64,000 nt of DNA from Topomyia yanbarensis (lineage: Eukaryota; Arthropoda; Insecta; Diptera; Culicidae): the NCBI RefSeq assembly GCF_030247195.1, contig NC_080672.1, positions 249,143,709 to 249,207,708 on the forward strand. Direction: 5' to 3'. The position numbers and the translations under genes were made by a program. Each line of letters starts with the position of its first letter. The first letter of the stretch is position 1. Below are positions 11,385 through 60,000 of this stretch, piece after piece. The notes beneath the pieces were generated by a model, which was not told where the DNA came from, searched no databases, and saw only the letters and a program-made list of their open reading frames with translations.

Positions 11385-12051
11385 GGGTAATACACCCCAC
11401 CGGGGCAAAATGCCCCTCTTTAATTCCCAGAATTCATGAATTTTCTAAAAAGTAAACATGACTGATAACAGTATCGTTTCATGAAATCAACGTAATAAGT
11501 TAACTTGGTATTTTTAATATGTTGCAAAACAATAATATACATAAAAGCTTCAGAAGAGCCATTTTGATGCAATTTCCCACTTTTTCCAATAGTATTACAA
11601 CCAATTAAAAACAGTCAGATTTGATAGAACTATTTCGAGTAGCTTACTAGAATATTATAGTTACAGTCTTAGTTTTTAGCTTGGCTTAAAATTATGTGTG
11701 CGTGTAGCATTATTCATGCATTCACAACAGTTCATCGCCGACAAAAACGCCCCGCCCATTGAGGCATACTCACCGATTGCTGTGGGGCATACCATCCTCT
11801 TGTTGTGGGGCATATTACACTGTAACCGAGGGCATTGTGCCCTGAGTGAAAGAAAAAACTAGAATTTAGAAATCTTTAAAAAAATGTTTAATAATATTTG
11901 AATCAGGATGTTTTTAATAAAAAAAATGAAACGGGTGCTAATTTCTAACTAATATAACAATAAATTAGAGTAGATGGTGCGGAGATCATAGTGTCGAATG
12001 TTGAAATACAGCTATCTTTGCTTAAGGGGGGCGTATTCGACCTGTTTACCC
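11385..12051. mobile_element. TA-flanked MITE-like element
   Basis: The left end reads GGGTAATACACCCCACC and the right end, on the other strand, reads GGGTAAACAGGTCGAATACG. Both are preceded by TA (11383-11384 and 12052-12053). Inside are repeated GGGGCAAAATGCCCC and GGGGCATA phrases. No coding capacity is seen. TA duplication suggests a Tc1/mariner-type origin, but the termini match only in part. Confidence 0.45.
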
Positions 12052-12650
12052 TAGTATGCTTTTAAAGCTACTAACAGAGCCTTTCTATTGAATTGTACTG
12101 TATATTAAATAAGAGGTGTGCGCCGATACGTTGTCGGGCCGCCCCGCGCCTGCACGCTGCTGGTTGCAATTTTTGTAAACACGCCGGCGTGCTGATGTTT
12201 TTTACCTGACATCGAAGGCGCGGCGGCGCACGCCTTTATATTGAATATTGAATGAAACTTTCCGCAAACTCGCCTTAAATTTAAATAATGTAATGCTACG
12301 TAGCACGCAATGCTGCAATAAGTCACTACCAACCATGCCCTTGTCCAACAATTTATACCTTTTATAATCTATTCTTATTCTAATTAAAATTCTGTCAATG
12401 TCGATACTGTTTCCGTTGTTGCATTAGCATGCCTTGTGCATGTTAGACTATGTTATATTATAATACAGCGATTTCAACATTTTTCGTAACACAGACCTCT
12501 TCGAATTCACACTGGGTTGCAACAGACCCCTCCCCGGTCCGTTTCGGATATTTGAAATTCCAGTATGCACCAGGAAAATAAATTCTTCTTGGCGGACCCA
12601 CAACAACTACTTCACGGCCCCAAGGGCCACATTACATTACATTACATTAC
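12052..12650. other. Unassigned sequence with a CG-rich patch
   Basis: 12112-12240 is unusually CG-rich for this window (CGGGCCGCCCCGCGCC, GGCGCGGCGGCGCACGCC) and has partly self-complementary ends, so it may be a short MITE. No gene is supported. Downstream sequence up to the (TA)n tract is unremarkable. Confidence 0.35.
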
Positions 12651-12652
12651 AC

Positions 12653-12880
<228 letters not shown>

Positions 12881-13090
12881 GTGTTATATTATATTAACGT
12901 ATCGTTTGTAATAGTTTTGCTACTTTTTGTGCATTGAATGTTTTTATGTGTGTATTAGCCGTAAAGCCTCTATTTGTATGGTTCACAGCCTTAAATGCAT
13001 GAAACAAACAAATAATCAAATTAATTAAAAATCTCATGCGAACATTGTTGTAGCACCTCATTCACCACGCCGGCAAAAACTGAACCTTAG

Positions 13091-13245
13091 AATGAAATCA
13101 CTCAGTCTGGACTCACCAGAATCGTCCGAATTGCATGGGCAAATGCGACGACGTTACCCAGGGCCATCGGCTCAGGCAGGCCAGGGAGGTTCTGGGGGTC
13201 ACTTAGAACATAGCACGCCACCATCAAACAATAGTAGATTACACT
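13091..13245 (+). CDS. Stac-like gene, upstream coding exon
   Basis: The frame reads MKSLSLDSPESSELHGQMRR and on through a Pro/Gly/Ser-rich stretch, ending at a GT donor (GTAAGT, 13246) in phase 1. A possible acceptor AG (13089-13090) sits just before, so this is probably an internal exon, though ATG 13092 could start a shorter isoform. The acceptor's pyrimidine tract is weak. Splicing to 13416 keeps the frame (LHSPSSPSGK), which is good evidence that both exons are real. Ser/Pro-rich linkers between the C1 and SH3 regions are usual in Stac proteins. Confidence 0.65.
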
Positions 13246-13415
13246 GTAAGTATGAAAAATCGAATGCTACCATTAGTCGACTTTAAATATTTGATAAATG
13301 CAGCTGTCTAGTGGTTGTAAAACTCATTTGCTACACCGTTCGGATGAAGCTATTTGCATCGCTGACATATTGTGAACTAGATAACTTTCTAATGCAATTA
13401 ATTGTCAATCAACAG

Positions 13416-13564
13416 CACCTTCAAGCCCGTCGGGCAAGCAGCGCAAATTCCTGTACGCGAATCGTGGAATGAAAACTGGATCGGTGGACCTTCCAGACGA
13501 AATTGAAAGAAGCCAATCATCAGCCAGCACATCACCATGTCCATCACCTGTCCGACAGACGCAG
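13416..13564 (+). CDS. Stac-like gene, Ser/Pro-rich linker exon
   Basis: Bounded by an AG acceptor at 13414-13415 (CAATCAACAG) and a GT donor at 13565 (CAGGTAATT). With one base carried over from the previous exon it codes for exactly 50 residues, including KQRKFLYANRGMKTGSVDLP, DEIERSQ and SPCPSPVRQTQ, and ends in phase 0. That matches the phase 0 start of the SH3 exon at 19446. The 170 bp intron before it is ordinary. The protein looks disordered, rich in Ser and Pro, with possible phosphorylation sites. Confidence 0.7.
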
Positions 13565-13749
13565 GTAATTCTAGATCATCTTGAAATATTTTAATACAGC
13601 TTTGAGGGAATAAAACAACTGGTGGTCTTAGCATCGTTATATAGGGAATAAACTTTGTTATTTTAGCCGAAAATAGCCTATTTTTTAACCATATACGGTA
13701 GAAACTAGAAGATGAAAAACAAAAAAATATGATTTTAAATTAGTTTAAG

Positions 13750-14652
13750 GGGGGCGGTGAAGATTTCAGCGTGAAATAAATACTTCTACTGCGAATTTTT
13801 TTAGAACTTTGCGTGAAGCAAATTTAGGGTTACGTGTTTCGGCTATGCAGTCTGCGGTATACAAAAACACTATTTTGTCTTTATCCGACGTTTCGGTCCG
13901 TTTGGGACCTGTTTCAAGGATTCTAGAAAGGAAGTTTATTGTGCTGTTGTTACATTGTTTTTTAATTGTTTTTACCGATAATGTGTGTTCTGTTGTCCGA
14001 TGTCTTGTTTTGCACCAAGCAATTGTCATTTGTCTATCCAACTGTTGAAATCAAAACTACCCGTTTAGAAAATCATTTTTCACAGAACACTTCTTTCCGC
14101 GTACTTACATTTCGCCGTTTCGATCGTGTCCACATCGATTTTGAGATCGAAACGCTTATTCTTTTAGCTCGAAATTCGGGCTGAACAGATTTCAACCAGC
14201 TGACAGAGTACATACATGGCTGTATGTTGGTGTGTGTTTAAACTTACTGCTCGTGTACCTATATGAGATTTGTTTCAGCTCTCTGAGTTCCTGTCGATAG
14301 TCGTTGCTGACTGTGCATTTACATTTGATTTGTTTTGATTCTCTCTTTTCGTTGATCGTATGAAGAATCCTAGCATAAATTACATGCAGATTGGCTGTGT
14401 CTGTACGCTTGTTTACTGTGTGTTGTGTGTTCCTAATGTGGCAACTTTCTAGGATTGGCAGATTATTAATTTTGAATGAACGGTCGATAATTTTTAGGTT
14501 GTCTAGCCGGAAGGTATGTCCCGTTTCTGCTGCGTGATCTACCAGTGCTGTATTCTCTCTTACGCAAGCTATCGCTGTATCTTCGTTGGTGTACCCCGCA
14601 TGCCGAAGCGTTGTTAGTTTTTTCATGTTGGACCGATGATCACTGGTGCGGT
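13750..14652 (-). mobile_element. Penelope-like element fragment (3' end with GIY-YIG-type endonuclease tail)
   Basis: The minus-strand frame 14626-14192 (144 residues) follows HRSNMKKLTTLRHAGYTNED with H..E.GHTF and FKINNLPILESCHIRNT, the C-terminal portion of the GIY-YIG endonuclease domain found in Penelope-like retroelements. Downstream on the same strand (about 13910-13870) is the phrase GGACCGAAACGTCGGATAAA, typical of the non-coding end of these elements. The reverse transcriptase part is missing: the copy stops at about 14650, where the LOA-like LINE begins. It lies in the intron of the Stac-like gene, on the opposite strand. Confidence 0.7.
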
Positions 14653-17600
14653 TTTTTTAACTTTGTGCTAGTCATGCCACATAAGGCATACAACACCACC
14701 TGGAGATATGGAATCCTACGAATACTACGGAAATGGCAGCTACGTGGAAGAATGATGAACAGTTTTCTGGCCGAAAGAACGTTTCAGGTCAACGTGGAGG
14801 GGCACTTGACGCCAGCACATCAACTGAAAAATGATGTGCCACAGGGCTCAATGCTTTCGGTTACGCTGTTTCTCGTGGCTATTCAACCTATCTTTCGCGT
14901 GGTTCCGAGTTCCGTACAGATCCTGGTGTACGCTGACAACGTTCTGCTTATAGTATGGGGGAAGAAAAACCAGTCGCTCCTTCGGAAACTTCAATCCGCT
15001 GTGGAAGCCATCGATAAATGGTCGAAAAGTGTTGGATTTACGATATCCGCAACGAAATTCAGCATCTTCTATTGCAGCCTGAATGCCCGCCGCGAACCCA
15101 CGCAAGCGATAAAGGTAGATAGTGTACCGTTCAGACACATACGCTGCTGAAAACCCTCGGTGTTAATCTCGACCAACCACTCAACTTTAAAGCGCATTGT
15201 AAAATTACGAAGAAGGCGTGCGAATCCAGGCTGCGTATTGTGATCGGATGATGATCGGTGCCAAGTTACCTCGTGGTCATCGTGCGTCTCTACTGCAAAT
15301 CGGGTCAGCAATTGTTACCTCTCGACTGCTCTACGGCATGGGGCTCGTAATCAGAGGAGGAGATGCCGTCATCCAAACTCTCGCACTTTGCATACAACAG
15401 GATGATAAGATTCGCATCCGGAGCATATGTCACAAGCCCAATCCTAGCCATTATTATTATAGCTTTCGCAATAAGAACAGCGCTAACTGCGTACCATACG
15501 TCCAGAGACCTGCTGATAATGTCAGGTTCGGCTTGCTGTCTATCAGCAATCGAAGCTAGCACCCGTGGAGATTGAGAACATGCTTCGAAACCGTCCAATC
15601 AAGCTGTGCTGGATTCCGGGTCATGCTGTTATACATGGTAACGAAGAGGCAGACCGACTTGCAGCAGAAGCCAGGGGCATTGCCCCACCAGATTTATCCG
15701 TTCCGGAGCAGACGCCGTTAATCAAACAAAAACAGCTATCCGAAATCAGTGGTACCAGCGGTGGTTAGCGTCCACTGAAGTAAAGCTTCGTGAAGTTAAA
15801 TTCGACACAGTGAAGTGGAGTGAAGTGAAGTGACCGCGAGAATTCGGCCGAACAGCGAGTGCTTACCCGGCTACGAATAGGGCATACCCGGCTGACACAC
15901 GATTTCCTGTTAAAGAAAACTTCGCCACCAGCGTGGGACTACTGTGAGATCACTAGGGTTCGTCGCGGTTGCGGTAATTACCGCAACCGCGCGGTATTTA
16001 CCGCATCCGCTCCGCAAAATCTGCGGTGCGGTGAGACGCTTTTTCCCGCAGATGCGGTGCGGGAAAGAACTTTCACCGCGCGGTTTTACCGCAACCGCAC
16101 CGCAAAAAATAATTGATGAAGTGATAATTTTGATTATTCTAAATTGATAAACAGACTGCTATTACGAAAGAAAATCTAGCTGTGTCCGAAATATTTTGAC
16201 GCTATTATTTTACGACATATTTTGGACTAGTTATTTGATACTTCTAAGTAAAAATTCACAAGCTAACCATTTCAAATACATGAAATGCAAGATCCAAATA
16301 GAGACAAAATTATTAGATCATTTAAAAACAATAAATTTGTTCTCTTAAATCCAATTTAAAAGTGCATCACTTCTCCCGATTTCTGCTGGTAATCGTGGAA
16401 TTATGAATCGTATACGATATCAATTTTTCAATTGCGAATTTTGACTAATTTAAAGGAATTAGAAATCAACTAATTATGCTGGGACTTAAACACAATCCAA
16501 AGAATATATTTATCTTCGTCAAACCAAACGAATTTGCAATAATTGGCAGTAAAGGATACAAATGTATGAAAGCGTCCAAAATAAGGAGGGGTCCAAATTT
16601 GGATGATTATTCTATCATTCGATCCTCAACATCGTATTTCTATCTTCTTTGATTGCTGTGTAAATTCAATGTAAATTTTTCTACAGTCAATTTTAATGGA
16701 CTCTTTCTCAAAAAGTATGCTACATAACTTTTTTTATACTTCATACATTTTTAAAGGGAGCAATCTTAGTTTTTGAATGAGAATACATCTGTTTCTTGAA
16801 GAATGCGGAAGTTAGAGTTTTGAGATATATTGGTCGTAAAACCCCCTATTTTTAAAAATCATTTCTGCTGTATGCTAAATCATACATTTTTTGCAGTTTT
16901 TCTAATGTTCAATAATTCTGTACCGGTTGAGACCGGACACCTGATTGGATGTAATGTATAGAGCAATTTTTTCGTCAAATATGGCGTCGTTCTTATTGAT
17001 GAAATACAATATGTTTTTATTTCACTGTATATGCGCTACTATATAGGAGTACTGGTATTTCGACTTTAAATTTTTGTTGGTGAAATTCCATTAAGAATGA
17101 AAGGTGGTTTTACTACGTAAATGCGAAAATCATCCATTTTATTTTCATATGTCAAAAGCATTGAAAATTTAAAGAAAAAAATATGCAACTTCATTTCTTA
17201 TTATATTTTTATTCCCCTTTTTTCAATTAACTGAAGGGTTGCTAAAATAAAAGTTTTCCTATTACTGCAGTAGAACCTTTTTTGAATGTATAATGTTTGC
17301 CTTAAAATAAACGGAATTTTATTAATAGAAAATGCAAAAGTTGATTTTTTCATAAACATTACATTCTGAGGAGTCTCTTAAAGTTAAATTTCGTGTGAAT
17401 AAAAATAACATTTTATTATATACTGTTACACAAATGAACAATTTTCCAACACTTTTTTTTTAAATTTAAAATTTTTCCGCATTTACCGCATTACCGCGCG
17501 GTGCGGTGCGGTAAATAAAGTGCGGTTGCGGTAAGCGGTGCGGTTTTATTATTTTTTTGCGGTTGCGGTGCGGACAATCCATTTACCGCCCACATCCGCA

Positions 17601-17800: not shown

Positions 17801-19445
17801 TGAATAATAAAACCAGAATATTGAGCTCATGAAACAAATGAACAATTGGTACTCAGTGTGACGCTAGACGCTGAAATCTCGAAACGAGCAAAAACAAAAT
17901 TTTGGCTTTCACTGCACGTTTGTGATCCTGATCACTAATAGAACATCCATTCTGACCACATTTTTCCTTCCGTTAGAGGCTCAGTTGTTTTCCGATGTCC
18001 CGATGAGAGAGTTTAGGATTTTCCAGGTGCTTGCGCAAAATGAACTCGCCATGTTGTTTTTCAGGCGACGCCATTTCTTCCAATTTTCGAAAAACTGGCA
18101 GCAATAAAAGTACAGTGTAAGCCATACACTCTAAACTGCTTCTACTCAAATTTTCAAGAGAAAATACCCAATGGGTTCTATAGCATTTTTTCCGTGGTTT
18201 TCTATAGCGTTTTTTCCGTGATGCAATTTGTTGTGGGACACCCTTAAATTCCTTTGACACTTGGTATCGACATCGTAGCGTGGTACGCCTGATGCCTCCA
18301 TGATGGACGAAGGTAATCGAAATTATTCAAAACCTTAGATTGCAATATTATTTACTATTAGTCAAAAAAAATGTTTAGCTTAATAAAATAAATCCTAAAG
18401 CCCTTAAGTATACAAAGTTGTGGCGAAAAAGTGAGCTAAGTTCATGATTTTTTTAAAGCGTTTCATGCAATTCTTTTTTTGAAAAAGCAAAAGACAGCTC
18501 GTTGGTAGTGCTATCTAAGTTCGAAAAAACAAGTTGAATTTAAAAAAATATTGAAGGTAGGCGGAGTTATGGCCCATCCCCCGTAGCGAGTTTTTTTTTG
18601 GCAAAGGTTTGCGGTGAACGCTCTCCAAGCCGAACCGCTCAACTGAAATAAAAAAAAGGAAAAAGATTATTGAAGAAAAATGTATTGTGGTGTACTTGAA
18701 CGGATCGGTTTTCCAATAAAAAAAAATTTTCTGCGAAAAAATCGTGTTAACCAAAAAATTGAGTTTTGTAGTGTTCAAAATTTTAAACAAAAATTCATGG
18801 CAAAGAATCAAAAAATTTTGAATAAAAAAGGAACCGTTCAAGTGCACGAAATACAAACAATTTAAAAAAAATGATGAAGATCGGATGAATCGTTTTTGCG
18901 ATATAACGTTTACCGCAACGGTACTTTTTAAACAACTTAGTTCCGAGATAATTGCGTTTAAAGTTTTGTGTTAACTTTATACGCGGAAGAACCAACGCGC
19001 TGCGAACAGCTGTAGTTTGAAATCTAGTGCTGCGATCTGGATGAAATTTCGCACAGATATTTTCAAAAGTATGTACTTTCAGAATATTCAATTAAATGTT
19101 TTTCGATTTTTTGAGTTCCAACTTCTTATATAACCCATTAAAGCAACAATGCAATTACTATTATAGGTATTAACATTCACGGAAGTCACCGACTATGCAT
19201 GGTTGAATTTCTTATTATTAATAAGACTTTTCAACGACATTAGAAACTATAGACCGTGATCTTACCTATGCGATTTGCAAAACCAGTAAACGGATCCAAA
19301 TATGATATGGGATGCAAATCCCACACTTGGGCCGACATATCAGATCATAGGATTTAGTTCCACTGTCGTACAGCAACACATTTAGCTATAAATATTTATT
19401 GCCATATGCTCAACGATGCTTCTTTATTCATTTCATGCATTGCAG

Positions 19446-19952
19446 AAGGTGCAACGACTGCTGCCAACTAACATTCACGTGGTGTTGTTTAACTTCAAGG
19501 CCCGGCACCAGGACGAGCTGGATTTGATGGCAGGATATAAGGTACATTTCAGTGCACAGGTGCAAATAATTAGCAAACGGTGGGACTTTAGACTACGCAT
19601 CCAAATTGCAGGTTACCGTTATCGATTCGTCGGATGCCAACTGGTGGAAAGGAAAATGCTTGGGTAAGGTTGGATACTTTCCTTCCAAGTATTGCACTAA
19701 ACTTGGCGCCTTGGAAAAGGTGTTACAAGTGACCCACCCACTCCATATCACTGACAACGAGCGGTGTGAAGTGAAATTGCAAAGAGATCAAATTGTGATA
19801 CAGGTACAGAAGGTTAGATTGTTGTGACTGTAAAACAATTTTAACTATATAAACATTTTCAGATTGCCGAGGAGGTAGGGGGTATGATAATGGTCCGCTT
19901 TGCTGACAATCATCAGGGTGTCATTCCGGCAAAATATCTACAGGAAGTCTGA
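19446..19952 (+). CDS. Stac-like protein, tandem SH3 domains (three exons)
   Basis: Exons 19446-19541, 19612-19803 and 19863-19952, with introns of 70 and 59 bp. SH3-1 carries VVLFNFKARHQDELDL (ALYDY-type start), the acidic RT loop, ANWWKGKCLGKVGYFPSKYC (WW, then GYFPSKY). SH3-2 (VTHPLHITDNERCEVKLQ, then VRFADNHQGVIPAKYLQEV) is divergent and lacks the WW. Two SH3 domains in this order, the second atypical, and an end just after the IP.KYL motif are what vertebrate STAC proteins show. Known role of the family: adaptors that bind voltage-gated L-type calcium channels in muscle and neurons. The C1 domain was not found in this window. The frame ends at TGA 19950-19952, followed by CTA; see the next entry. 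Confidence 0.87.
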
Positions 19953-22034
19953 CTACGGGATGACGAGGAATTAGACCGAGATCGAGATAAGCCAAACAAA
20001 AAAGCTAATAAAAGTATCTTGCCAGGCCAAAATGGTAAGTCGAGCAAAAAAATCGCGAAACTTCAAAGCTACGAAAAGGAGGACGATACTCGTAGTCACC
20101 ATTATCATAAGGAAGGAAAACATAACATGCATATAACATGTGATAAGAATTGGGAAAAATGGGAAAAGTTCCGGGAAAAGAAAATGCAAATGATGAAAAC
20201 ACATAAATATAATGTAGAACAGCGACTTAGAAATGAAAATCAAGAGCAAGTTTATTATAGGCACCATTTTAATTATCACCCTGTGAAAAGACCTAAAAGA
20301 AAAACATCACTAGACCCCAATTGGTATACCGAAAATATCTATTCTAATCAGTCGATAGATAATTCAGATGGAGAACAAGCTTTAGCGATGGTACACAGTT
20401 ATCAGCCCAGAAAACCTCAAGCCTATAGAGACCTCAACGGAAATCTCGACGAGGAATTGGGCGGCATTTTTACTATAGGTGCACAATTTGAACGAACAAA
20501 CAAATACCCTAAATCGAATAGCTGTTGTTTTGGTGGAAGTAGTAGCTTAGCAATTAACAATGTTAGATATAAAATTCCTAAATCGCACTCGTTTAGCACC
20601 TCCAGGAGTATGGGCGCCAGTTTCAACTTAAACAAAACATACAATCGAAATAGTTTCGAAATGGCTGAGTTTCCTGGACATGCTTTATCCGATTCGGGTC
20701 GATTGAACCATTACAACGGTCTCAAACCGTTGGGAATGCGTATATGTGATCGTGAAGGTTGCTTCAATGAAACGTGCTTTAGTAAGGATACTAAGAATAT
20801 TCATAATAACAATAATAATAACCTGATGAACGAGTGGAATCTGCGGAATCGGAATAATATAAGAAGGCGTTTGGCAAGTGCAAGACCGCAGCATGTCATG
20901 GAAGAAGACTTTGATCTGTTTGAAGATGATGAGGAAAGTGACCTAAACATGTACAACGACGACAACTCGATCGTATTTGACGAATTCGATGACCAGGACT
21001 ACTATGGAGCTGGACAGGTCACGGCCGACTTTGATGAATTCTACCGTCACGAGCGAGCCAAGCAGGTATTGCGTGGCAAGTTTGATCGAATCAGCAAGTA
21101 TACCGATGACTTCACCGATGATTATCATAAATCTTTTGAGGACATATTCAATCAAAATTGCTACATTGACAAACAGTATCAGGTGAAAGGCAATAATTTT
21201 TTTTCCAAACCTTATATTGCTAAGAACAAAAGTATGCTGGAAGTAAAACCACCGAGTAAATATGACGATACCTCATCCGATTCCACCGATTTGGAATTGG
21301 ATGATTTTAACTTTGATTTTGAAAAATACTGGGAAGAACTAGAGAAACCATTACCTACATCGCCGAGTGAACTCAAGGAGAAGTATCCGCCGGGAGCATT
21401 GAAGAAGGTGAAAAATGTTAACATTAATCGATACAACAATGGAACTGTGATAGACATCTATCATGACGATGACCCTTATCATTCAGATCATCATCACTAT
21501 CGCGAGGGTAACGATAGAAACAGCAAACTTGATTCTTTCTCGCCACCATCGCTTAGTAAGTTCAGTAGAAAAGTATATCCCGAAAGAAATAACGTAACTA
21601 ATGGTTTAAGTAAAAACCCCAGCAGCAAAAGAAATAATATTAGCAACAACAACAACGCGATTAGTTTTTTGAACAACATTTTTTCCATCTACAAACCAAG
21701 CAAATACTCACCGCTCAATTGCCACGTAGAACAGAATTATTTGAAAAATATCCCTGCCAAAAAGATGAACATAACAAGTTCAGCTAGACCGCTTGGAGCA
21801 CCTAGAAGTGATTCGGAGAATTCGGCTAAACGACCACTAACAGTTCATCCATCTAAACAGTATTCGCAACGCTCATATCAAGGTAATCGTAACCAGAAGG
21901 AACCGCAAGCCAAGTTCCAGATAATTCCAGACAAAACCGGTTTGAAAATATCTCCACTATACGTATCGAGTGCCGACTATCGGAAAGCAAGGTATAAATT
22001 AAAAAGTACTTCCCGACCACTATCCTTCTGGTGA
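19953..22034 (+). CDS. In-frame 693-codon extension after the leaky-context UGA of the Stac-like gene
   Basis: Directly after TGA 19950-19952, the same frame is open for 693 codons and stops at TGA 22032-22034. A random frame this long in AT-rich DNA is very unlikely, so this is coding. It starts LRDDEELDRDRDKPNKKANK. The first in-frame ATG is about 60 codons in, without an obvious promoter or splice acceptor before it. The protein is hydrophilic, with Asn, Ser, Lys, Tyr and His runs and strong acidic blocks (EEDFDLFEDDEESDL, FDEFDDQDYYGAGQ, LELDDFNFDFEKYWEELE), a PLPTSPSELKEKYPPGALKK segment and a basic tail. No known domain is seen; it is probably disordered. UGA followed by CUA is the established high-readthrough context. 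Alternatives: a separate downstream cistron or a spliced isoform that skips the stop. Confidence 0.75.
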   Translation, partial: LRDDEELDRDRDKPNKKANKSILPGQNGKSSKKIAKLQSYEKEDDTRSHHYHKEGKHNMHITCDKNWEKWEKFREKKMQMMKTHKYNVEQRLRNENQEQVYYRHHFNYHPVKRPKRKTSLDPNWYTENIYSNQSIDNSDGEQALAMVHSYQPRKPQAYRDLNGNLDEELGGIFTIGAQFERTNKYPKSNSCCFGGSSSLAINNVRYKIPKSHSFSTSRSMGASFNLNKTYNRNSFEMAEFPGHALSDSGRLNHYNGLKPLGMRICDREGCFNETCFSKDTKNIHNNNNNNLMNEWNLRNRNNIRRRLASARPQHVMEEDFDLFEDDEESDLNMYNDDNSIVFDEFDDQDYYGAGQVTADFDEFYRHERAKQVLRGKFDRISKYTDDFTDDYHKSFEDIFNQNCYIDKQYQVKGNNFFSKPYIAKNKSMLEVKPPSKYDDTSSDSTDLELDDFNFDFEKYWEELEKPLPTSPSELKEKYPPGALKKVKNVNINRYNNGTVIDIYHDDDPYHSDHHHYREGNDRNSKLDSFSPPSLSKFSRKVYPERNNVTNGLSKNPSSKRNNISNNNNAISFLNNIFSIYKPSKYSPLNCHVEQNYLKNIPAKKMNITSSARPLGAPRSDSENSAKRPLTVHPSKQYSQRSYQGNRNQKEPQAKFQIIPDKTGLKISPLYVSSADYRKARYKLKSTSRPLSFW

Positions 22035-23570
22035 TAGTTGCTCGACTGTTCGTATTATTCGGATGGCCGACTGGATGGAGTACCCGTGGTCAAGAAGACT
22101 CGCAGAACCAAATATCTCAAGTACTGAAATTTCATCAATCAGAGTGTTATAATATAAATAAGAAGCCCACCACTTTTCAATATTCCACTTCGTTCCATCT
22201 CCTGTACAGTTGAAGTTTTCATAAAACTCGCAACAGATTATTATGCTACTTTTTATACCATTAATCGGTAAACTTAAAAGTAAGAACCACGTAAATCCAC
22301 CTATCAAAGCGTACATCCTTGATTGTAAATATCCATATTCGAATATTTAAAATGCAACTTTTAATACCTTTTGAAGGATTCTATATTACAAAATCACCAG
22401 CAACTCACCTACAATTTTGCATAGGAGCATTAATGAATTTGAAAACCGTAGAAGTTATAGTCGCACATCAATATACGAAACCATATCCAGACATACAAAT
22501 TAATCTACTATACTATTTTAGTTCGTTAGGTGCCATCAAAATTGTATCAAGTGATATGATTTATATATAGCAAACTGTAGCTAGCACACATGTAATGCAC
22601 CTTCACAAACGATTGATTTGTTATGCAAACCCTCTTCTTTAATTCGAAACGAAGCTTACTTGACTCTGCTGACAGTACAGTATATTGTCGATTTTGTACT
22701 CTGAAGACGATGAAAAAATCAACACGGAAATAACCAAGTTGGCGTTGAATATCTGAATAATGCGAACGCGATCCATTCGTGGTTTCAACCCATAATTGGT
22801 TATGTGTTATTAAATGTCACACATAGCTGTCCTATGTTCTGCGGGATTGCATTTCCATATTGCTGTTCCCAATTATCTTGAGCGTATTCAACATAGTGAA
22901 AATTTGAGTTCTACTTTTCATACGTTTTCTGTGACAAGAAATAACGTATAACCGTAGTGGGGTAACTTCACAAACTACAGGAATTGACTGCAGGAAAAGA
23001 TCTTCTTTTTGTGTTTGATTTAAGGATAATAACAAACAAACTGCACAGAGAAGGTATTGTCCCGAGCAGCTAACATAACTAAACATAAACTTCACGCCGT
23101 ACCCAATAGTAGAGAGATATAAGAGCTATTCGGTTGATTTTTACAGCGATTTACTTCAGTTGCGGACAAAAATGAACACAATGTCACACAAGTTAAACAT
23201 TGAATGTGGTACAGGCTTGAGAAAAATATTGCCTTTGCTAAGGTAGCTTCATTTGAATTTTTACTCAAATCAACTATATGTATCCGAAGCTCCTTATAAT
23301 CCTCATTCCCCAAAGTTCTTTTTTACATCAATCAGATAGCGTATGTAGGTTGTTTCTCTTTTCAAACTAGTTAGTAGTGTCAATGTACCAATAGCCGCAT
23401 TATCAAAAAAGTTTGCATCAAAAAATTGATAAAACGATCTATGCCATCGCTCTACAATTTTTGATAGGGAATTCTATGGATCATACGATAATCATTCGTA
23501 TTGCCGAATAAGGGTGATGTTCGTAGTTGAATTGAAAGTATTTAATTTTTATCTTGGAGCGATTTTTTTA
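22035..23570 (+). other. Probable 3' UTR of the Stac-like gene, then unassigned
   Basis: Sequence after the second stop is AT-rich with no convincing gene. Part of it is presumably the 3' UTR, but I cannot fix the polyadenylation site. Short open frames here (22020-22316 minus, 22319-22570 plus, 22832-23095 minus) have no recognisable features. Confidence 0.35.
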
Positions 23571-23574
23571 TTTT

Positions 23575-23735
23575 GATTATAGAGGTGTTAACCTTAGGGT
23601 TATTCGCCTCTTTTCAGGTTAGAGAAATCTCTTTTCAGAAAAATCTCTTACCCTATGTGCGGGGTTGGGAATCGAACCCAGGTGAGCTGCGTACAAGCGA
23701 AGACTACATATTAAGAAGACTGATATCTCTTTCCT
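23575..23735 (-). mobile_element. tRNA-derived SINE fragment
   Basis: On the minus strand it reads CAGCTCACCT, then GGGTTCGATTCCCAACCCC (a pol III B-box, GGTTCGATTCC), then CGCACATAGGGTAAGAG, and ends in AGAGGCGAATAACC and CCTCTATAATCAAAATAAAA. This layout, a tRNA-like head and a 3' body with an A-rich tail, is that of mosquito Feilai-type SINEs. The A-box part is poorly preserved, so it is probably 5'-truncated. Confidence 0.6.
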
Positions 23736-24044
23736 TCCCCCATACAAACGAGAAGCGACAGAGGTTACAGCGCCTCTATTGGAAGAAGGGAGGAAGCTTT
23801 ATGTAAAAATGTATATGTGTGTGTGCATCACTATGGAAAGCACCACCTTTACCCGTAAGTGGCGTTGCTGTTACTGTCTCCGGATTCTGGACAGAGTTGC
23901 CAGTCTTCTTGATATGGAGTCTTCGGTACAAGGCAATCGATTTACCAACTATGCTATGCCCATCCCCCTTGGAAGGAAAATTGTCTTCCAAATAAATTTA
24001 TTTATTCCAAACTGCTGGATTTGCTCAAATTTAAAGGGCAAAGA

Positions 24045-31290: not shown

Positions 31291-32007
31291 TGACCCAAAA
31301 TAAACCACAAACCAACAAGTTCTTTTCAGGACCAGCCAATTATATTCCAGTAAGATATAAATGAAATTTTCGTTTTCCATTGCCTTACAACCTCTTTCCT
31401 CCCGGCTTGAATTACTATCAATCTTGATGATGCTGTGCGGCTGGGCACAGGCAGTTTCCATTATAGTGGAAAATTTAGGTTTGCGCGTTTTTCCCAAAAG
31501 TTTTTTAGCTGTGCTGTTTTCAAGGAAGTTGTAGTTGAATTCAAAATAAAATAGCTTACTTCTATTGGCAGAGGTGGACCTTCCAACGAAAACTAGTCTG
31601 GTTCGCTTGGAATCGAATTGTATGGACCAACAACTGCTTTCACAAAATCCGTTATTTCAGTAATTGTACATTCCACAGAATTAGTCACAACTATTTCCAA
31701 TCAGCGCAAAAATCGAAGGTTTTCATTCAATACAACAGAAGATTTTCACGTTTGAAAAAACAGGCAGCATTCTGGCCGAAAATTTTGAAACGGAGCACCT
31801 ATATCGAAACGTTAGAAAACGTTCGATTTTTGTAAATTGAATCATTACACTAAACTGTCTGTAAATCACAAATAACTTTTGATTTTGTGCCATTCTTGTG
31901 AAAGCGACGGTATTGTTCACAAGTGGCTCACTTACCATCCAACGCTCTTGACAAGCTGATGCTTGTAATAACAAAACTTCAATTTCATTCTTTGTCGATA
32001 CATTGAT

Positions 32008-32023
32008 GGCCCTGAAAAGGGCC
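32008..32023 (-). promoter_or_regulatory. Histone mRNA 3' stem-loop (H2B copy 2)
   Basis: On the minus strand it reads GGCCCTTTTCAGGGCC, a perfect 6 bp stem with a TTTC loop, 24 nt after the H2B copy 2 stop. GACAAAGAATGAAAT follows, a plausible U7-binding downstream element. Confidence 0.85.
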
Positions 32024-32047
32024 TGTTGTTTGGACAGTGTTCGGAAT

Positions 32048-32190: not shown

Positions 32191-32587
32191 GCTGAGTTTT
32201 TATACCTGACTACAGCACAATGTAAGCTCATCCTTTTTTGTATTGTCCTCAATATGTGTTCGTCGTAGCTCCACCCCTTGGTTGGTCGACCACATATTTT
32301 TGATAAAGAACAAAATTGAAATTGTGTTTCCACTACGGAGATTATCGAACACTCAGGGTAAAGAGAGTAATGTAATACGGCACCTTGGTAAAATGTTTGA
32401 GAATTGAAACCTTTTTTGCATGCGCCTAGTAAAAATGTTTTCCACTTCACTCCAGATTGTTTCTGACCATATTTGCAATTTGCGTACTGAAATAAATCAT
32501 AATTTAGGGTTTAACCCAAATAGCTCTCCAAGGAGAAACAGTCCATGACACAGAAAATGCAAACTTATTCTTTGAAATGATTTTGGT

Positions 32588-32603
32588 GGCCCTGAAAAGG
32601 GCC
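32588..32603 (-). promoter_or_regulatory. Histone mRNA 3' stem-loop (H4)
   Basis: GGCCCTTTTCAGGGCC on the minus strand, about 40 nt past the H4 stop, followed by CAAAGAATAAG. Same hairpin as H2B copy 2. Confidence 0.85.
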
Positions 32604-32642
32604 TTTTTTATAATGATACAAGTGAGTTCTACCTTTTCAACT

Positions 32643-49692: not shown

Positions 49693-51533
49693 AGGCAGCC
49701 CTAAGTTTGCGCCGCTAAAACAACAAAAATGATCCATAAAAAATTTAAAAACGATCCATAAAAAAGTTGTCAATGTTCCATAAAACAAAACTGAAAATCC
49801 ATAAAGCAGTGTGAATGATCCATAAAAAGGGGTGTTTTGATCCATAGATTATGTAAAATTGAACCATAAAATGGTCGCAAAAGAGCACTAAAATAGTAAT
49901 AAAAGAGCAATTAAAATGAACCAATGCCCCATAAAAATATTGGAAATGTTCCATAAAATGATACATTTTGCGCCATAAATTAACTGACATTGATCCATAG
50001 AATATTAACAATGTACAATAAAACACGTCGATATGTTCCATAATATCGACAAAAATGTTCCATGGTATTACAAAATGGAGCAATAAAATATCAGAAAAAG
50101 TTCCATAAATTTGATGAAAATGTTTGCTAAATAATTTTTCTTGGTTCATAGAAGATGTAAAAATGAACATTAGAAATGATTCATATATCGAACGTTAAAT
50201 AATGGTTCATGGATATTTACAAAACGATCCATAAGAAAAGAAAATGTAAAACGATCCATTAATATGTGCTTATGCACCAGAAAAATTAAATTTAATGAAT
50301 TCATGCGAAATTTTTGCTGTTCGAACTAATAATAAAGTTTATTACATTTGGTTGTAATGTCAAACTACAACAAACCATGCATACATTATAGTTAAACTTA
50401 AGCTTCCGTATCCCACTAGTCAGGTAACTGACCTTAGCTAACCTGAAATCATTATGGCAACTCTTTAAACGTCAGGGTATTTATGATATTAGAGCGCTGA
50501 GAGTTATTAGACCACTGATACAGGGTGGCATGAGTCGCAAATACTATCTGAATAACTATCTGAAGCGAAAACGGACACTTTATACACGAACACTGACTAA
50601 TGTGGCTACGCCACATCGCTTTCTAGTGTACTGTCGGACTTCGCTGCCGCTCAGTCGGCTTTTAACTAGCTATAGCCCCTATGTTTAAGTAAACCGGGTA
50701 AACGAGAGGACCACAGGTTTGCTTGCAATTCCAGCTACGGGTTAATCAATGCCTCGTCCAACGGATCCTCAGCGGCTTTGCGCCGCTTCGGATCCTTGGC
50801 CTCGGATATGTGGCCAAGCCGCATCACACTAGCTCCCAGTATAAGCTCACTTGTTAAAACACTGTCACTGTTATGAGAATTATTAAGCACAACTTATTTT
50901 TTCAGTTTACCTTAAAATTTCGCATGAATTCATTAAATTTATTTTTTCTAGTGCATAAGCACATATTAATGGATCGTTTTGCATTTTCTTTTCTTATGGA
51001 TCGTTTTGTAAATATCCATGAACCATTATTTAACGTTCGATATATGAATCATTTCTAATGTTCATTTTTACATCTTCTATGGACCAAGAAAAATTATTTA
51101 GCAAAGATTTTCATCAAATTTATGGAACTTTTTCTGACATTTTATTGCTCCATTTTGTAATACCGTGGAACATTTTTGTCGATATTATGGAACATATCGA
51201 CGTGTTTTATTGTACATTGTTAAAATTCTATGGATCAATGTCAGTTAATTTATGGCGCAAAATGTATCATTTTATGGAACATTTCCAATATTTTTATGGG
51301 GCATTGGTTGAATTTAATTGCTTTTTTACTACTATTTTAGTGCTATTTTGCTACCATTTTATGGTTCAATTTTACATAATCTATGGATCAAATCACCCCT
51401 TTTTATGGATCATTCACATTGTTTTATGGATTTTCAGTTTTGTTTTATGGAACATTGACAACTTTTTTATGGATCGTTTTACAATTCTTTATGGATTATT
51501 TTAAATATTTTATATGCAAAAGTACATTTTCCC
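49693..51533. mobile_element. Foldback element: about 595 bp arms of CCATAAA repeats, 8 bp TSD
   Basis: TTTCCAAG is duplicated at 49685-49692 and 51534-51541, and the empty site is present in the second gag copy at about 55171. Arms 49721-50318 and 51510-50918 are inverted copies, over 90% alike by eye, built from a loose repeat of 22-30 bp around GATCCATAAAA/GTTCCATAAAA. The central 600 bp is unique: it has a TATAAA motif, several short hairpins (GGATCC...GCGGC...GCCGC...GGATCC) and AATAAA. The 140-residue frames in each arm are the translated repeat, not protein. Confidence 0.85.
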
Positions 51534-53310: not shown

Positions 53311-54807
53311 AGACTGTCAAGGATCTTCCAAGGTTTGGAGGCGACCCAGAGGACTGGCCTCGTTTCATTGCAGCGTATGAAAGAACAACACGAATGTGTG
53401 CATTTCGAAACGATGAGCTGTTGGATCGACTGGAAAGATGTCTCCACGATCGAGCTTTCAGCGCCGGTTAGAGCCTGCTATTGCACCCAGAAAATGTACC
53501 CGTGATAATCAAACGGCTGAGGACGCTATTTGGAAATCCTGAGTCAATAGTAGAAACACTAGTTAAACGGATTAGAGCGATGCCAGCACCTAAAGCGGAT
53601 CGGATGGAAACAATAATTGATTTTGGGGTTGCAGTACAAAACCTTTGTGCTACTGTGCAGGCATGTGAAATGGACGAGTGTCTGTATAACGTGGCTCTAC
53701 TGCAAGAATTGGTAGATCATTTGCCTCCCACCATTAAAGTGAACTGGGCACTTTTTCGCCAATCCAAGCGATCCGCCTCTCTCGTCGATTTTAGTGAATG
53801 GATAGGAAACTTGGTAGATGCGCTGAGCAAAGTTACGAGACCTGCCTTTGTCGGTTCCAAGTGTAACCGGCCGATCGAGAAGCGAGGCCGGAGAGACGAC
53901 GCATATCTGAATACTCATACAGATGAAAGGAAACCGAGTCTGAAAGCTTGTTTTGCATGCGGAAAGTCTTGCAAAGCGCTGGATAAATGCGAAGGATTCC
54001 TAAAGATGTGCCCAAAATCGCGATGGGCGATTGTAAAAAATAATAAAGTGTGTAGAAAATGCTTGAAGAAACATTTTAATTCTTGCGCAGTAAACAATCC
54101 CTGCAGAAAGAACGGGTGTCTGTACCTACACCACCCACTTCTCCACGATGATGAGCGGCATAAGCAACAAAGCAATGCTTCCGCGAATCAGCACAGCCCT
54201 TTGACCAGGTACACACCATCATGCAATACTCATTACTGTTGTCTTGGTACAGTTATGCTCAAATACGTAAAGGTTACAATACATGGAAGAGGGAGATCGG
54301 TAACCACATATGCCTTCCTGGATGACGGGTCAACTTGTTCACTCATGGAGCACGATCTATTGGAAGAGCTCAATATTTCGGGAGAAAATTACCCTTTATG
54401 TATCAATTGGACTGGTGGACAGGCTAGATATAAATCAAACTCGGTCAAGTGCGTCGTAGAGATAACAGGGGTGAATGATTCCAGTGGCCGGACCAGTCTT
54501 TGCAAGGTTCACACGGTAGAAAGTCTTCAGTTACCGTAGCAAACGATGTCTGTTGAGGATATTTCAAAGCATTATCGACACCTCCGGGGAATCTCGATAG
54601 AATCTTATGTAGATATCAGACCTCGTGTTCTCTTAGGGATGGACAACATCCGGTTAGGACACCCGTTAAACTCGAGAGAAGGGGAAGAAAATCAACCAGT
54701 TGCAGCTTTGACGCGACTAGGATGGATCGTTTACGGTCCATGTTCTATTGCTAACGCCGACCAGCGAAAACAACACGATGAGACCTATAGTTTTCACATC
54801 TGTCAGT
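53311..54807 (+). pseudogene. BEL/Pao gag-protease, first copy
   Basis: Gag C-half (GDPEDWPRFIAAYERTTRMC, as in DUF1759-type domains), LLLHPENVPVIIKRLRTLFG, CCHC-like Cys clusters (ACFACGKSCKALDKCEGFLK), then a retropepsin-like aspartic protease with TYAFLDDGSTCSL. One frame throughout, but broken by TAG at 53469-53471 and 54537-54539. After MSVEDISKHYRHLRGI it runs to HICQ and then jumps back to earlier gag sequence at 54807-54810: the duplication junction. Confidence 0.85.
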
Positions 54808-54809
54808 CA

Positions 54810-57081
54810 GTTGTGACAGACCAAGAATTGAAAGTACTAACCGAAGTCGGCACTCGTTCGACGTCAGGCGTTACGTCTACTCCAATATCCAAAATGAGTA
54901 TAATGGAACAAAATATCCTTAGCCAAGCTATAGCTACTGAGCAGCAACGACTGCGTGAAGAAATGGATAAATCCAATCAGGAAATGCGAGAACAGCTGCA
55001 GCAGATTACTCAAGCTCTCATGAGCGAGCGAACAAAACACAAGCAACAAATTCTCACTCTCGTGCAGCAGTATGAGAATCGTATGAAACTACCGCCGATC
55101 TCGTCGTCACTCGAAGCCGGCATGTCACAGCAAAATCACACTGGCGCAATCAAGAAAAACTACAATAGTTTCCAAGATGTTGCTAGAGAGAACCAAACTC
55201 AAGGAGGAAATTTTGAAACGAAGAGTAAGGCGTCGTCCAGGGCTTCCAGAAACTCTGCTAGGTTGTATGAGCTTCAACGTAAGGCGCTGGAGGAAAAACA
55301 AGCTCTGGAGAGAAGACAGCTCGAGGAAAGATTAGCTTTGCAGCAGGAGCAAATAGAGCAAAGTGACAGAGATTCGGTAGAGGACGTTGGAGATGTATCG
55401 AAAATAGCTGATTGGCTTGAAAAGGTCAATCTCGGAGAGCATCCTAAAGAGCATTCAGCCGCGATCGACGAATCACCGGTAGCTGAAAATCATAGAAACT
55501 CTCATTCGTCGCTGGCATCGGTATTTAGTCTACATCCTCGGCAAGGATTGGAGCCGCTGGATACCCGACACCTAGCCGCTCGACAGACTGTCAAGGATCT
55601 TCCAAGGTTTGGAGGCGACCCAGAGGACTGGCCTCGTTTCATTGCAGCGTATGAAAGAACAACACGAATGTGTGCATTTCGAAACGATGAGCTGTTGGAT
55701 CGACTGGAAAGATATCTCCACGATCGAGCTTTCAGCGCCGGTTAGAGCCTGCTATTGCACCCAGAAAATGTACCCGTGATAATCAAACGGCTGAGGACGC
55801 TATTTGGAAATCCTGAGTCAATAGTAGAAACACTAGTTAAACGGATTAGAGCGATGCCAGCACCTAAAGCGGATCGGATGGAAACAATAATTGATTTTGG
55901 GGTTGCAGTACAAAAACCTTTGTGCTACTGTGCAGGCATGTGAAATGGACGAGTGTCTGTATAACGTGGCTCTACTGCAAGAATTGGTAGATCATTTGCC
56001 TCCCACCATTAAAGTGAACTGGGCACTTTTTCGCCAATCCAAGCGATCCGCCTCTCTCGTCGATTTTAGTGAATGGATAGGAAACTTGGTAGATGCGCTG
56101 AGCAAAGTTACGAGACCTGCCTTTGTCGGTTCCAAGTGTAACCGGCCGATCGAGAAGCGAGGCCGGAGAGACGACGCATATCTGAATACTCATACAGATG
56201 AAAGGAAACCGAGTCTGAAAGCTTGTTTTGCATGCGGAAAGTCTTGCAAAGCGCTGGATAAATGCGAAGGATTCCTAAAGATGTGCCCAAAATCGCGATG
56301 GGCGATTGTAAAAAATAATAAAGTGTGTAGAAAATGCTTGAAGAAACATTTTAATTCTTGCGCAGTAAACAATCCCTGCAGAAAGAACGGGTGTCTGTAC
56401 CTACACCACCCACTTCTCCACGATGATGAGCGGCATAAGCAACAAAGCAATGCTTCCGCGAATCAGCACAGCCCTTTGACCAGGTACACACCATCATGCA
56501 ATACTCATTACTGTTGTCTTGGTACAGTTATGCTCAAATACGTAAAGGTTACAATACATGGAAGAGGGAGATCGGTAACCACATATGCCTTCCTGGATGA
56601 CGGGTCAACTTGTTCACTCATGGAGCACGATCTATTGGAAGAGCTCAATATTTCGGGAGAAAATTACCCTTTATGTATCAATTGGACTGGTGGACAGGCT
56701 AGATATGAATCAAACTCGGTCAAGTGCGTCGTAGAGATAACAGGGGTGAATGATTCCAGTGGCCGGACCAGTCTTTGCAAGGTTCACACGGTAGAAAGTC
56801 TTCAGTTACCGTAGCAAACGATGTCTGTTGAGGATATTTCAAAGCATTATCGACACCTCCGGGGAATCTCGATAGAATCTTATGTAGATATCAGACCTCG
56901 TGTTCTCTTAGGGATGGACAACATCCGGTTAGGACACCCGTTAAACTCGAGAGAAGGGGAAGAAAATCAACCAGTTGCAGCTTTGACGCGACTAGGATGG
57001 ATCGTTTACGGTCCATGTTCTATTGCTAACGCCGACCAGCGAAAACAACACGATGAGACCTATAGTTTTCACATCTGTCAG
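54810..57081 (+). pseudogene. BEL/Pao gag-protease, second tandem copy
   Basis: Repeats 49326-54807 minus the two inserts, at nearly 100% identity. It has the same two in-frame TAG codons (55743-55745 and 56812-56814) and one extra A near 55917 that shifts the frame. Small differences from copy 1 include GTG for ATG near 55061 and TAT for TGT near 55713. This copy carries on into the pol region, so copy 1 is the extra one. It provides the empty site for both the foldback and R1 insertions. Confidence 0.87.
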
Positions 57082-60000
57082 TGCGAAACCCTTCATGCAA
57101 TGGTTAAGGAGTTTTTCTCACTAGACAGCCTTGGAATCCAGACTCCCAGCGGTTCCCTAATGTCTAAAGACGATGAGCGTGCAATGGCGCTACTCATGTC
57201 CAACACTTTACTGAAAGAGAATCGGTACGAAACATCCCTACTATGGAAATTTGATGAAGTCAAATTGCCAGAAAGCAAAACGATGGCTCTAAAGAGATTT
57301 CACTGTTTGGAGAAACGTATGGCACGTGAACCTGAGATGGCTACAGCATTGCGAATTATGATTCGGGACTATGAGACTAAAGGCTATATATGGAAATTAT
57401 CATCGGAGGAGGAAAATGTGCCGAGAGATCGTGCTTGGTATTTGCCAATATTCCCGTGACGAATCCTAATAAACCAACGAAATTGCGAATCGTCTGGGAT
57501 GCTGCAGCCAAAGCCCATGGAGTATCGCTAAATACTTTTCTACTTAAAGGACCCGACCAGTTAACATCCTTACCTGGAGTCCTCCATCGCTTCCGGAAGT
57601 ATCGAATAGCGGTTTCAGGAGACATATGTGAGATGTTCCACCAGGTACAAATTAACAATGATGATCAGCACTGCCAGAGGTTTTTATGGAAAAGTGGACC
57701 TCAAGATCAAACACCATCGGTGTACGTGATGACTGTTATGACGTTTGGTGCAACATGTTCTCTTAGCTGTGCCCAATACGTGAAAAACAAGAATGCTGAA
57801 CGTTTCGTGCACAAGATGCCTGCGGCTGTCGATGCCATCATTAACGAACACAATGTGGACGATATGCTATCCAGCGTAGAGACGGAAAAGGAAGCTGTTG
57901 ATCTTGCAACAAATGTCCGCTTCATTCATGCACAAGCGGGATTCGAGATACGTGGATGGCTTTCTAATTCCAATGAAGTGCTAGCTGCTTTAAACGGACC
58001 CCAAACTTCGGAGAAGGATCTGAACGTAAATTCTCAGATGGCAACCGAAAAGATTCTTGGGCTGTGGTGGAATACAAAGACCGACACTTTCACCTTCAGA
58101 TTTCCCAAGAGAGCAGATGTGAAATTTTTATCCGGCCAGACAATCCCTACGAAGCGTGAAGTCTTGCGAGTCCTGATGTCCATCTTCGATCCACTAGGAT
58201 TTCTCGCCAACGTACTAATGTACTTAAAAGTTCTTCTACAGGAGATATGGCGTGCCGGTACGGCATGGGATGAGCCAATAGCTAATGAGCAATTCGTGAA
58301 ATGGCGTACGTGGCTTGGAGTTTTGACGAAGGTGGACACCGTTTCTATTCCGAGGTGCTATCGTGTCAAAACTTCATCAATGGAATCAAATAAACTGCAA
58401 CTCCATATCTTCGTCGACGCGAGTGAAAATGGATTTGCAGCTGTCGGCTATTTTCGATATGAAGAGCAAGGAGTAACTGAGTGTGCATTCGTGGCTGCGA
58501 AAACACGCGTTGCACCCCTGAAATATGTTTCCATACCTCGACTGGAATTGCAGGCTGCGGTGATTGGAGCGCGGTTGGCAAAGACGATAGTGGAACGTCA
58601 CCGCGTGACAATCAATGAACGCTTTTTTTGGACAGACTCGCGGGACGTACTCTGTTGGCTAAATTCGGACCATCGTCGCTATAGCCAATTCGTTGCATTT
58701 CGTATAGGAGAGATTTTGGAGAATACGGACGTTTCTGAATGGCACTGGTTATCAACGCAGATGAATGTGGCAGACGAAGGTACTAAGTGGCAAAAATTAC
58801 CAGATCTTTCTCCGTCCAGTAGATGGTTCCGTGGTTTGTCGTTCATCTGGATGCATAAGCACGAGTGGCCAGATCTGCGAGGACATGTGGGATCGACGTC
58901 AGTAGAACTGAGACACTCAGTGAATCTCCATCAACATGAAGCAGTATTGGTGAACTTTTCGGATTTTTCCAATTGGAAACGACTACTACGTTTGGTTGCT
59001 CTCGTGTTTCGTTTCGCTCACAACTTAAAAGCCAAACTTAATGCAACGTCACCAACTGTTAAAGCACTGCGAACCGAAGAACTTCAAATTGCAGAAAGCT
59101 ATATTTTTCGGCAAGTTCAGTTAGCAGCATATTCTGAAGAAATGGCTATAGTGGCAAAGTCAGCCGAAACGAGCCGATTTAAGTTGCCGTCGAATAGTAC
59201 AATATGTGGCTTGTCACTATACTTGGACGATCGAGGGCTATTGCGAATACGAGGAAGAGGTAAACATTGCGCGTTTGCAGGCCCATACGCAACCAATACC
59301 ATTTTACTTCCAAGAGACCACCCTGTTACTACACTTATCGTACGCTCGGTACACGATCGATATCACCACCTTAACCATGAGACTGTCGTGAACGAGCTTC
59401 GACAAAAATATCGGATCCCCAGATTGCGTAGACTCTGCAACAAGATTCGCAAGGAGTGTCAAACTTGCAAGAACAGCAGAGCAAAACCGGAACCTCCAAT
59501 GATGGCAGATTTACCCTTAGCCAGGCTGGCTGCTTATACCAAACCCTTCTCGTATACAGGTGTGGATTATTTCGGTCCACTGTTCGTAGTTGTGGGTCGA
59601 CGAGTAGAGAAACGATGGGGCGTTCTTCTTACGTGCATGACGGTTCGAGCTATCCACATCGAAATAGCACACACACTAAACACTGACTCATGTATAATGG
59701 CTATACGGAACTTCATGGCGCGTCGTGGAACACCGTTACAAATTTTCAGCGATAGAGGAACCAACTTCATCGGCGCTAGTCGTGAGCTACAAGAAGCGCT
59801 GCAGAAAATCGACCACGAGAAACTATTCAGCGAATTTGTATCGTCAGAACTAAAATGGTCGTTTAATCCGCCAAACTCTCCACATTTTGGAGGCTGTTGG
59901 GAGAGATTAGTACAATCCGTTAAAAAAATTCTCAACCAGATGCATCTTCCACGTCATCCTACAGATGAAGTCCTGAGAAATACACTGGTGGAAATTGAGA

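Follow-up and report, generated by a model that had tools for sequence, protein, structure and literature searches.

Organization of the Stac locus

The 64,000-nucleotide (nt) stretch of the Topomyia yanbarensis genome analysed here (the window; C3:249143709-249207708 of genome G000, 1.168 Gb) carries on its forward strand the tandem-SH3 part of a gene that was named Stac because of this tandem SH3 unit. The SH3 reading frame is closed by a UGA stop codon, behind which the same frame remains open for 693 codons. Judged from the composition of this single genome, readthrough of the UGA is probably the best explanation of the locus. The elements around the stop codon are the following (a slash within a motif marks the splice junction):

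19446..19541, forward strand: Stac exon with the first half of SH3-1 (KVQRLLPTNIHVVLFNFKARHQDELDLMAGYK), acceptor TGCATTGCAG, donor AAG/GTACAT
19542..19611, forward strand: Stac intron of 70 nt
19612..19803, forward strand: Stac exon with the remainder of SH3-1 and the beginning of SH3-2
19804..19862, forward strand: Stac intron of 59 nt
19863..19952, forward strand: Stac exon with the end of SH3-2, closed by TGA (...GVIPAKYLQEV-TGA)
19950..19952, forward strand: UGA, the proposed readthrough codon, followed by CUAC; located in the sequence after the residue aligned to the end of chain 6uy7
19953..22034, forward strand: in-frame extension of 693 codons and stop, with low predicted order and one match in the genome
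19953..20126, forward strand: first 58 codons of the extension, without ATG and with coding-like composition
20127..20129, forward strand: first in-frame ATG of the extension (AACATG)
22032..22037, forward strand: double stop TGA-TAG closing the extension
22038..22127, forward strand: 29-codon in-frame tail with its own stop TGA at 22125-22127 (LLDCSYYSDGRLDGVPVVKKTRRTKYLKY), a possible further extension or alternative exon

The spliced translation of 125 amino acids (19446-19541, 19612-19803 and 19863-19949) was compared with protein structures, and the best PDB matches were STAC3 chains, in keeping with the STAC family, whose tandem SH3 unit has a STAC-specific second SH3. The alignment with the STAC3 tandem-SH3 chain 6uy7 (E value 2.6e-22) covers residues 10-125 of 125 in the query and residues 7-120 of 120 in the chain, thus reaching the last residue of the latter, and the alignments with STAC (6b25) and STAC2 (6b26) stop at most one residue from the chain ends. 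The ends of these three chains are taken here to be the natural STAC C-terminus. Since the 6uy7 alignment runs to the final chain residue and the TGA at 19950-19952 is the next codon, the stop is placed at the STAC end, as the original prediction had claimed for vertebrate STAC proteins. In a Pfam search of the SH3 translation, SH3-1 alone was recognised. The three SH3 exons are present once in the whole genome, where the other five of eight matches are weaker lone SH3 domains with 34-42% identity; on the basis of these sequence matches, the gene is a single-copy Stac.

A genome-wide search for the C1 domain gave 129 matches at E values up to 10, one of which (E value 0.05) lies on the strand of the SH3 exons, some 50 kb upstream of them, within locus L004:

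L004:9353-9508 (bounds by eye; G000:C3:249113061), forward strand: probable C1-domain exon, partial match to PF00130

The piece L004:9352-9499 matches positions 25-49 of the 53 positions of PF00130 with 25.0 bits (E value 1.7e-5), which is below the whole-domain cut-off of 26.5 bits, and in the PDB search STAC3 chain 2db6 ranked at the top with an E value of 0.042, nearly equalled by PKC gamma with 0.043. Read by eye, the frame is carried on by the exons after the C1 exon (...RRQKSTSEIENRTEAEEE..., ...EPTDIDQIYQVLKRAG...). The upstream C1 exon probably belongs to Stac.

Repetitive sequences were also observed in the upstream part of the locus. A translated stretch common to 18515-18970 (reverse strand) and L004:8329-8541 (forward strand) was recognised by eye as a dispersed repeat, the copies of which sit just upstream of the SH3 exons and of the probable C1 exon, about 50 kb apart. 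Moreover, the stretch 12001-16000 (forward strand), upstream of the SH3 exons, matches reverse transcriptase (PF00078) and, at a score under the cut-off, RNase H; these are traces of a decayed retrotransposon.

The open reading frame behind the stop codon

The TGA at 19950-19952 is directly followed by CTACGGGATGAC, with CTA as the first codon after the stop, and the frame stays open between 19953 and the TGA at 22032-22034. Over this stretch no stop occurs in frame 0, in contrast to 35 and 92 in the other two forward frames and 22, 41 and 39 in the three reverse frames. The probability of 693 open codons by chance is about 1e-19 with the stop-triplet density of the stretch itself and about 5e-18 with that of the downstream non-coding DNA. 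Two second-order Markov models, each used to simulate 60 sequences of 64 kb that were read on one strand, gave open frames of at most 200 and 212 codons. The direct reading and the six-frame stop counts thus bear out the TGA-CTA stop with a 693-codon frame put forward in the original prediction, and the chance estimates agree with its statement that such a frame is very improbable.

As controls from the same genome, kinase open reading frames (ORFs) were taken from 30 loci, which are the top 30 among 133 matches. Eight of the loci were dropped, six because they contained no motif-bearing ORF with a stop behind it and two as duplicates. In the remaining 22, with the ORF stops taken as gene ends, the open stretch after the stop was 0-40 codons long, where one control runs off its locus and gives a lower bound.

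Coding signal of the extension

Codon composition was scored along the extension. Training on the extension makes partial use of the very ORF under test; an independent codon model was therefore built on 23 kinase segments from 30 loci of this genome (25 in all, less 2 duplicates), and four stretches of the window that were assumed to be non-coding provided the comparison windows. With this model the SH3 exons score 0.342 bit per codon. Codons 1-58 of the extension, all of which precede the first ATG, score 0.207 bit per codon in frame 0 versus -0.135 and -0.087 in the other frames; this value is matched or exceeded by none of 270 non-coding windows, while 46% of 68 held-out coding windows score equally low or lower. 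The first 20 codons alone score 0.323, which is reached by 5 of 1584 non-coding windows and 12 of 2000 open shuffles. When the extension body and the SH3 exons were used for training, the frame-0 score of codons 1-58 was reached by none of 1000 dinucleotide shuffles, and with training on the SH3 exons only by 2 of 1000; among 1000 shuffles that stay open none reached it. The coding-like composition in this genome therefore begins right after the TGA and before the first ATG, which argues against a separate cistron started at an ATG.

Explanations of the long frame

If the UGA is read through, most ribosomes would stop at 19950-19952 and release the canonical protein, which has the tandem SH3 unit at its end, whereas a fraction would decode the UGA in its leaky UGA-CUA context by a near-cognate transfer RNA and go on for 693 codons. 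The product, Stac-long, would have a C-terminal tail of about 81 kDa that is slightly basic and for the most part disordered. We infer translation across the UGA, its efficiency and the role of the tail, which would probably consist in added protein contacts for the channel adaptor. Of the readthrough interpretation in the original prediction, the coding signal ahead of the ATG, the lack of a good bypassing acceptor (see below) and the UGA followed by a 3' C, the context found in the readthrough class, are in favour; the acidic character of the tail did not stand, and the codon frames are patchy. The same prediction had called the context the strongest known, and UGA-CUA is indeed present, but the actual sequence is UGA-CUAC and the strong mammalian motif is UGA-CUAG.

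Several observations weigh against readthrough. The bases from +4 to +7 are CUAC and not CUAG. No significant RNA structure was predicted 3' of the stop (z -0.64 over 110 nt and -0.71 over 80 nt), which sets the locus apart from the structure-stimulated subclass; readthrough, if it occurs, would therefore rest on the immediate context or on elements invisible to folding. Internal starts at the ATG at 20127, which has an A at -3, are possible for part of the product. Codon usage is patchy: when the extension is cut into 12 blocks of 58 codons with a shorter last block, frame 0 is best in 7, another frame outscores it in blocks 117-174, 175-232, 523-580, 581-638 and 639-693, and blocks 59-116, 175-232 and 523-580 are non-coding-like, as fractions of 0.32, 0.49 and 0.60 of the non-coding windows reach their scores. 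The mean of the whole extension is 0.008, which is above 97% of the 58-codon non-coding windows and below 97% of the held-out coding windows. The score ignores stop codons, and frame 0 alone is open among the three forward frames. The poor blocks include Asn-rich, AT-rich sequence, and in a disordered tail that evolves fast this may account for the low scores.

Alternative splicing from an upstream Stac exon into the extension, with loss of the TGA, would yield the long protein without readthrough, and it is a usual confounder in such cases. The extension follows the SH3-2 exon without interruption, and by consensus inspection no good acceptor that bypasses the TGA was found after the stop. 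Each of the six phase-0 AGs in 19953-20111 is preceded by G or A, and their pyrimidine fractions lie at 0.35-0.59; the next phase-0 CAG (20222) has a fraction of 0.29, and the TAGs at 19974 and 20095 have 0.24 and 0.29, compared with three genuine Stac acceptors that are CAG with 0.53-0.65. Given this range of the genuine sites, pyrimidine content discriminates acceptors poorly, and the preceding base and the loss of SH3-2 sequence weigh more. On the donor side, GAG/GTAGGG at 19875 is a possible phase-0 site, and the CAG at 20025, the sole CAG within 19953-20111 and with CTAAT upstream, could accept the phase-1 donors 19882 or 19918 in the SH3-2 exon, but all of these donors cut into SH3-2, and use of the acceptor at 20025 would remove 24 codons from the start of the extension, including the initial 20, which are coding-like. 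The phase-0 donor GAA/GTCTGA at 19947 would take just one residue from SH3-2, but it is poor, with 4 of 9 consensus bases. Splicing around the stop is thus regarded as unlikely. A separate downstream cistron or gene, translated from the ATG at 20127 or from a non-AUG codon by way of an internal promoter or re-initiation, is distinctly unlikely. Dicistronic genes exist in flies (PMC4528330), the A at -3 would suit a start at this ATG, and the weak codon score directly behind it (block 59-116) could hide a boundary; however, 58 open, coding-like codons in the SH3-2 frame precede the ATG, and an independent cistron would share that frame with a chance of 1 in 3.

In a lineage with a normally long Stac, the UGA might also have arisen recently as a nonsense allele, or it might be an error of the assembly, as the sequence comes from a single assembly and one codon parts the two reading frames. 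This would, however, have to place the stop at the end of the vertebrate chain, with a chance of about 1/800 for a random codon of the joined frame of 818 codons, and in the UGA-C context of readthrough stops, so that this origin appears highly unlikely. Recoding of the UGA by other means, either adenosine-to-inosine (A-to-I) editing to UGG or insertion of selenocysteine, would give the long protein from the same DNA, but is regarded as exceedingly improbable. ADARs disfavour a 5' G. The A of the stop has such a neighbour and is predicted to be mostly unpaired (probability 0.83-0.88 in four predicted folds; paired 0.12-0.17), which makes editing unlikely. For selenocysteine, no Rfam match to a selenocysteine insertion sequence (SECIS) element was found in the whole window at gathering score or in 19850-24000 at E values up to 1, and the main text of a fly survey reports neither a sign of editing nor SECIS elements at readthrough stops (PMC3840789). 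Readthrough therefore remains the favoured explanation in the following sections.

Properties of the C-terminal tail

The tail encoded by the extension has a calculated mass of 81 kDa and an isoelectric point of 8.97 with 110 K+R and 96 D+E, and is therefore slightly basic overall; the expected acidic tail is reduced to one acidic patch, a 60-mer from residue 308 with a net charge of -19, and the end is basic. With a mean of 0.362 against a boundary of 0.421, the charge-hydropathy position of the tail points to disorder. In a single-sequence AlphaFold model the mean predicted local distance difference test (pLDDT) value is 39.5, with 601 of 693 residues below 50, and the longest helices are 64-104, which is more confident with blocks up to 87, and 367-400. 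This model fits disorder, but as single-sequence models are often poor it is weak evidence; on these predictions the tail is proposed to be largely disordered.

Searches of the tail against Pfam and PDB gave no match, and none of seven targeting or SH3-ligand motif patterns tried was enriched. A single KRPKRK cluster at residue 112 and a single class I SH3 ligand pattern at residue 465 are not claimed as functional, because these counts are reached by 89 of 500 and 136 of 500 shuffles, respectively. An origin of the extension as a transposon ORF was considered and rejected, as it matches itself alone in the window and in the 1.168 Gb genome and lacks domain or structure matches. A pattern search for relatives gave no match in viral contigs and seven matches in contigs of prokaryotic genomes, none of which was confirmed.

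Double stop and further 3' features

The in-frame tail behind the double stop (codons 22038-22124) was scored as a window of 30 triplets in which its own stop is included but skipped by the score. Its value of 0.269 is reached by 1 of 1560 non-coding windows but by 94 of 2000 open shuffles. The values for frames +1 and +2 likewise lie above zero (0.096 and 0.178), and with another score 41 of 1000 dinucleotide shuffles that stay open reach the value of the tail. The TAG at 22037 is a possible phase-0 splice acceptor for an alternative last exon, and thirteen double-stop readthrough cases are reported for Anopheles gambiae in the main text of PMC5100048. Double-stop readthrough and an alternative last exon are both possible for the 29 codons, and the evidence is too thin to choose between them. 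As a speculation to which little probability is assigned, a stepwise cascade can be imagined in which the leaky UGA adds 693 residues and the TGA-TAG, passed at a low rate, adds 29 more, so that one mRNA would give three Stac C-termini and readthrough in muscle or neurons would, by way of the very large tail, switch Stac between the roles of plain calcium-channel adaptor and scaffold.

A near-consensus donor, ATG/GTAAGT at 20035 (8 of 9 bases), was observed within the extension 83 nt past the TGA. If used, it would lead to another 3' end.

Other elements in the window

Two histone 3' untranslated region stem-loops scored above the Rfam gathering score on the reverse strand, at 31984-32028 and 32563-32608. 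The ORFs around these matches are partly repeated on the same strand and are possibly copies of a histone-derived or mobile repeat. Further repeats were recognised by eye. In the region 53472-60554, two retroelement ORF pieces (53472-54539 and 55891-56814) are nearly identical and equally oriented. Behind each comes an ORF (54540 and 56815), both of which begin alike, and these are followed by an integrase-like ORF of 1057 amino acids. Near-identical translated ORFs at 49745-50194 (reverse strand) and 51034-51504 (forward strand), about 840 bases apart, form an inverted repeat.

Significance and comparison with known systems

STAC proteins affect calcium-channel inactivation and excitation-contraction coupling, and fly Dstac has roles in muscle and locomotion and in neuropeptide release (PMC8258685, PMC7573238). 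If the readthrough explanation is true, translation termination itself would serve to control how channels are regulated in the excitable cells of insects; the locus would also offer a clean test bed. As the mechanism is already established in insects, the surprise would lie in the gene and in the size of the extension.

The fly Stac gene is presumably CG43729. Neither this name nor 'stac' occurs in the main texts of PMC5100048, PMC3840789 and PMC4528330; in the text of PMC13170385 CG43729 is absent and 'stac' occurs twice, within 'stacks'. The Dstac paper PMC7573238 speaks of 13 transcripts with a BAR domain, and 'readthrough' is absent from its main text. Readthrough of Stac may be new or may possibly be listed among the known candidates already, because the candidate gene lists stand in supplements and not in the main texts.

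With STAC1-3 and Drosophila Dstac, the gene described here shares the tandem SH3 unit and, probably, a C1 exon; the STAC3 chain ends at the position of the Stac stop codon, while the 693-residue tail has no PDB counterpart. Among mammalian readthrough genes, OPRL1, OPRK1, AQP4 and MAPK10 have UGA-CUA in common with Stac, but position +7 is G there and C in Stac (PMC4132726). In HEK-293T reporters UGA-CUA alone gave 1.5% readthrough, and about 31% was found for UGA-CUAG of OPRL1 (PMC4132726). Those mammalian extensions for which a length is given are short, with 13 residues in MAPK10 and typically 28 in another, compared with 693 in Stac (PMC4132726).

The closest resemblance is to insect genes. 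In Drosophila, headcase, kelch, traffic jam, Synapsin and drifter/ventral veins lacking (dfr) likewise yield two proteins from one mRNA, the longer one being extended C-terminally; these cases have been shown experimentally, and dfr has a promoting stem-loop, in contrast to Stac with no significant predicted structure (PMC13170385). For Anopheles gambiae 353 readthrough stops are given in the main text of PMC5100048, where 333 Drosophila candidates were used; UGA followed by C is associated with readthrough in flies and Anopheles, and in Anopheles the features by which readthrough is recognised include UGA, a C on its 3' side and a second ORF longer than 100 codons. According to the main text of PMC4528330, FlyBase contains 328 readthrough genes with extensions from 4 to more than 1000 residues, most of them 8-300, and many of the longer ones are low-complexity and disordered-like. 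Stac resembles the Drosophila and Anopheles readthrough genes in the UGA-C, the long in-frame second ORF, the early coding signature, the lack of a SECIS element and the disordered-looking, low-complexity tail. Its extension, known here from one genome, is longer than most annotated fly extensions, but a giant extension is not unprecedented, since extensions of more than 1000 residues exist in FlyBase (PMC4528330).

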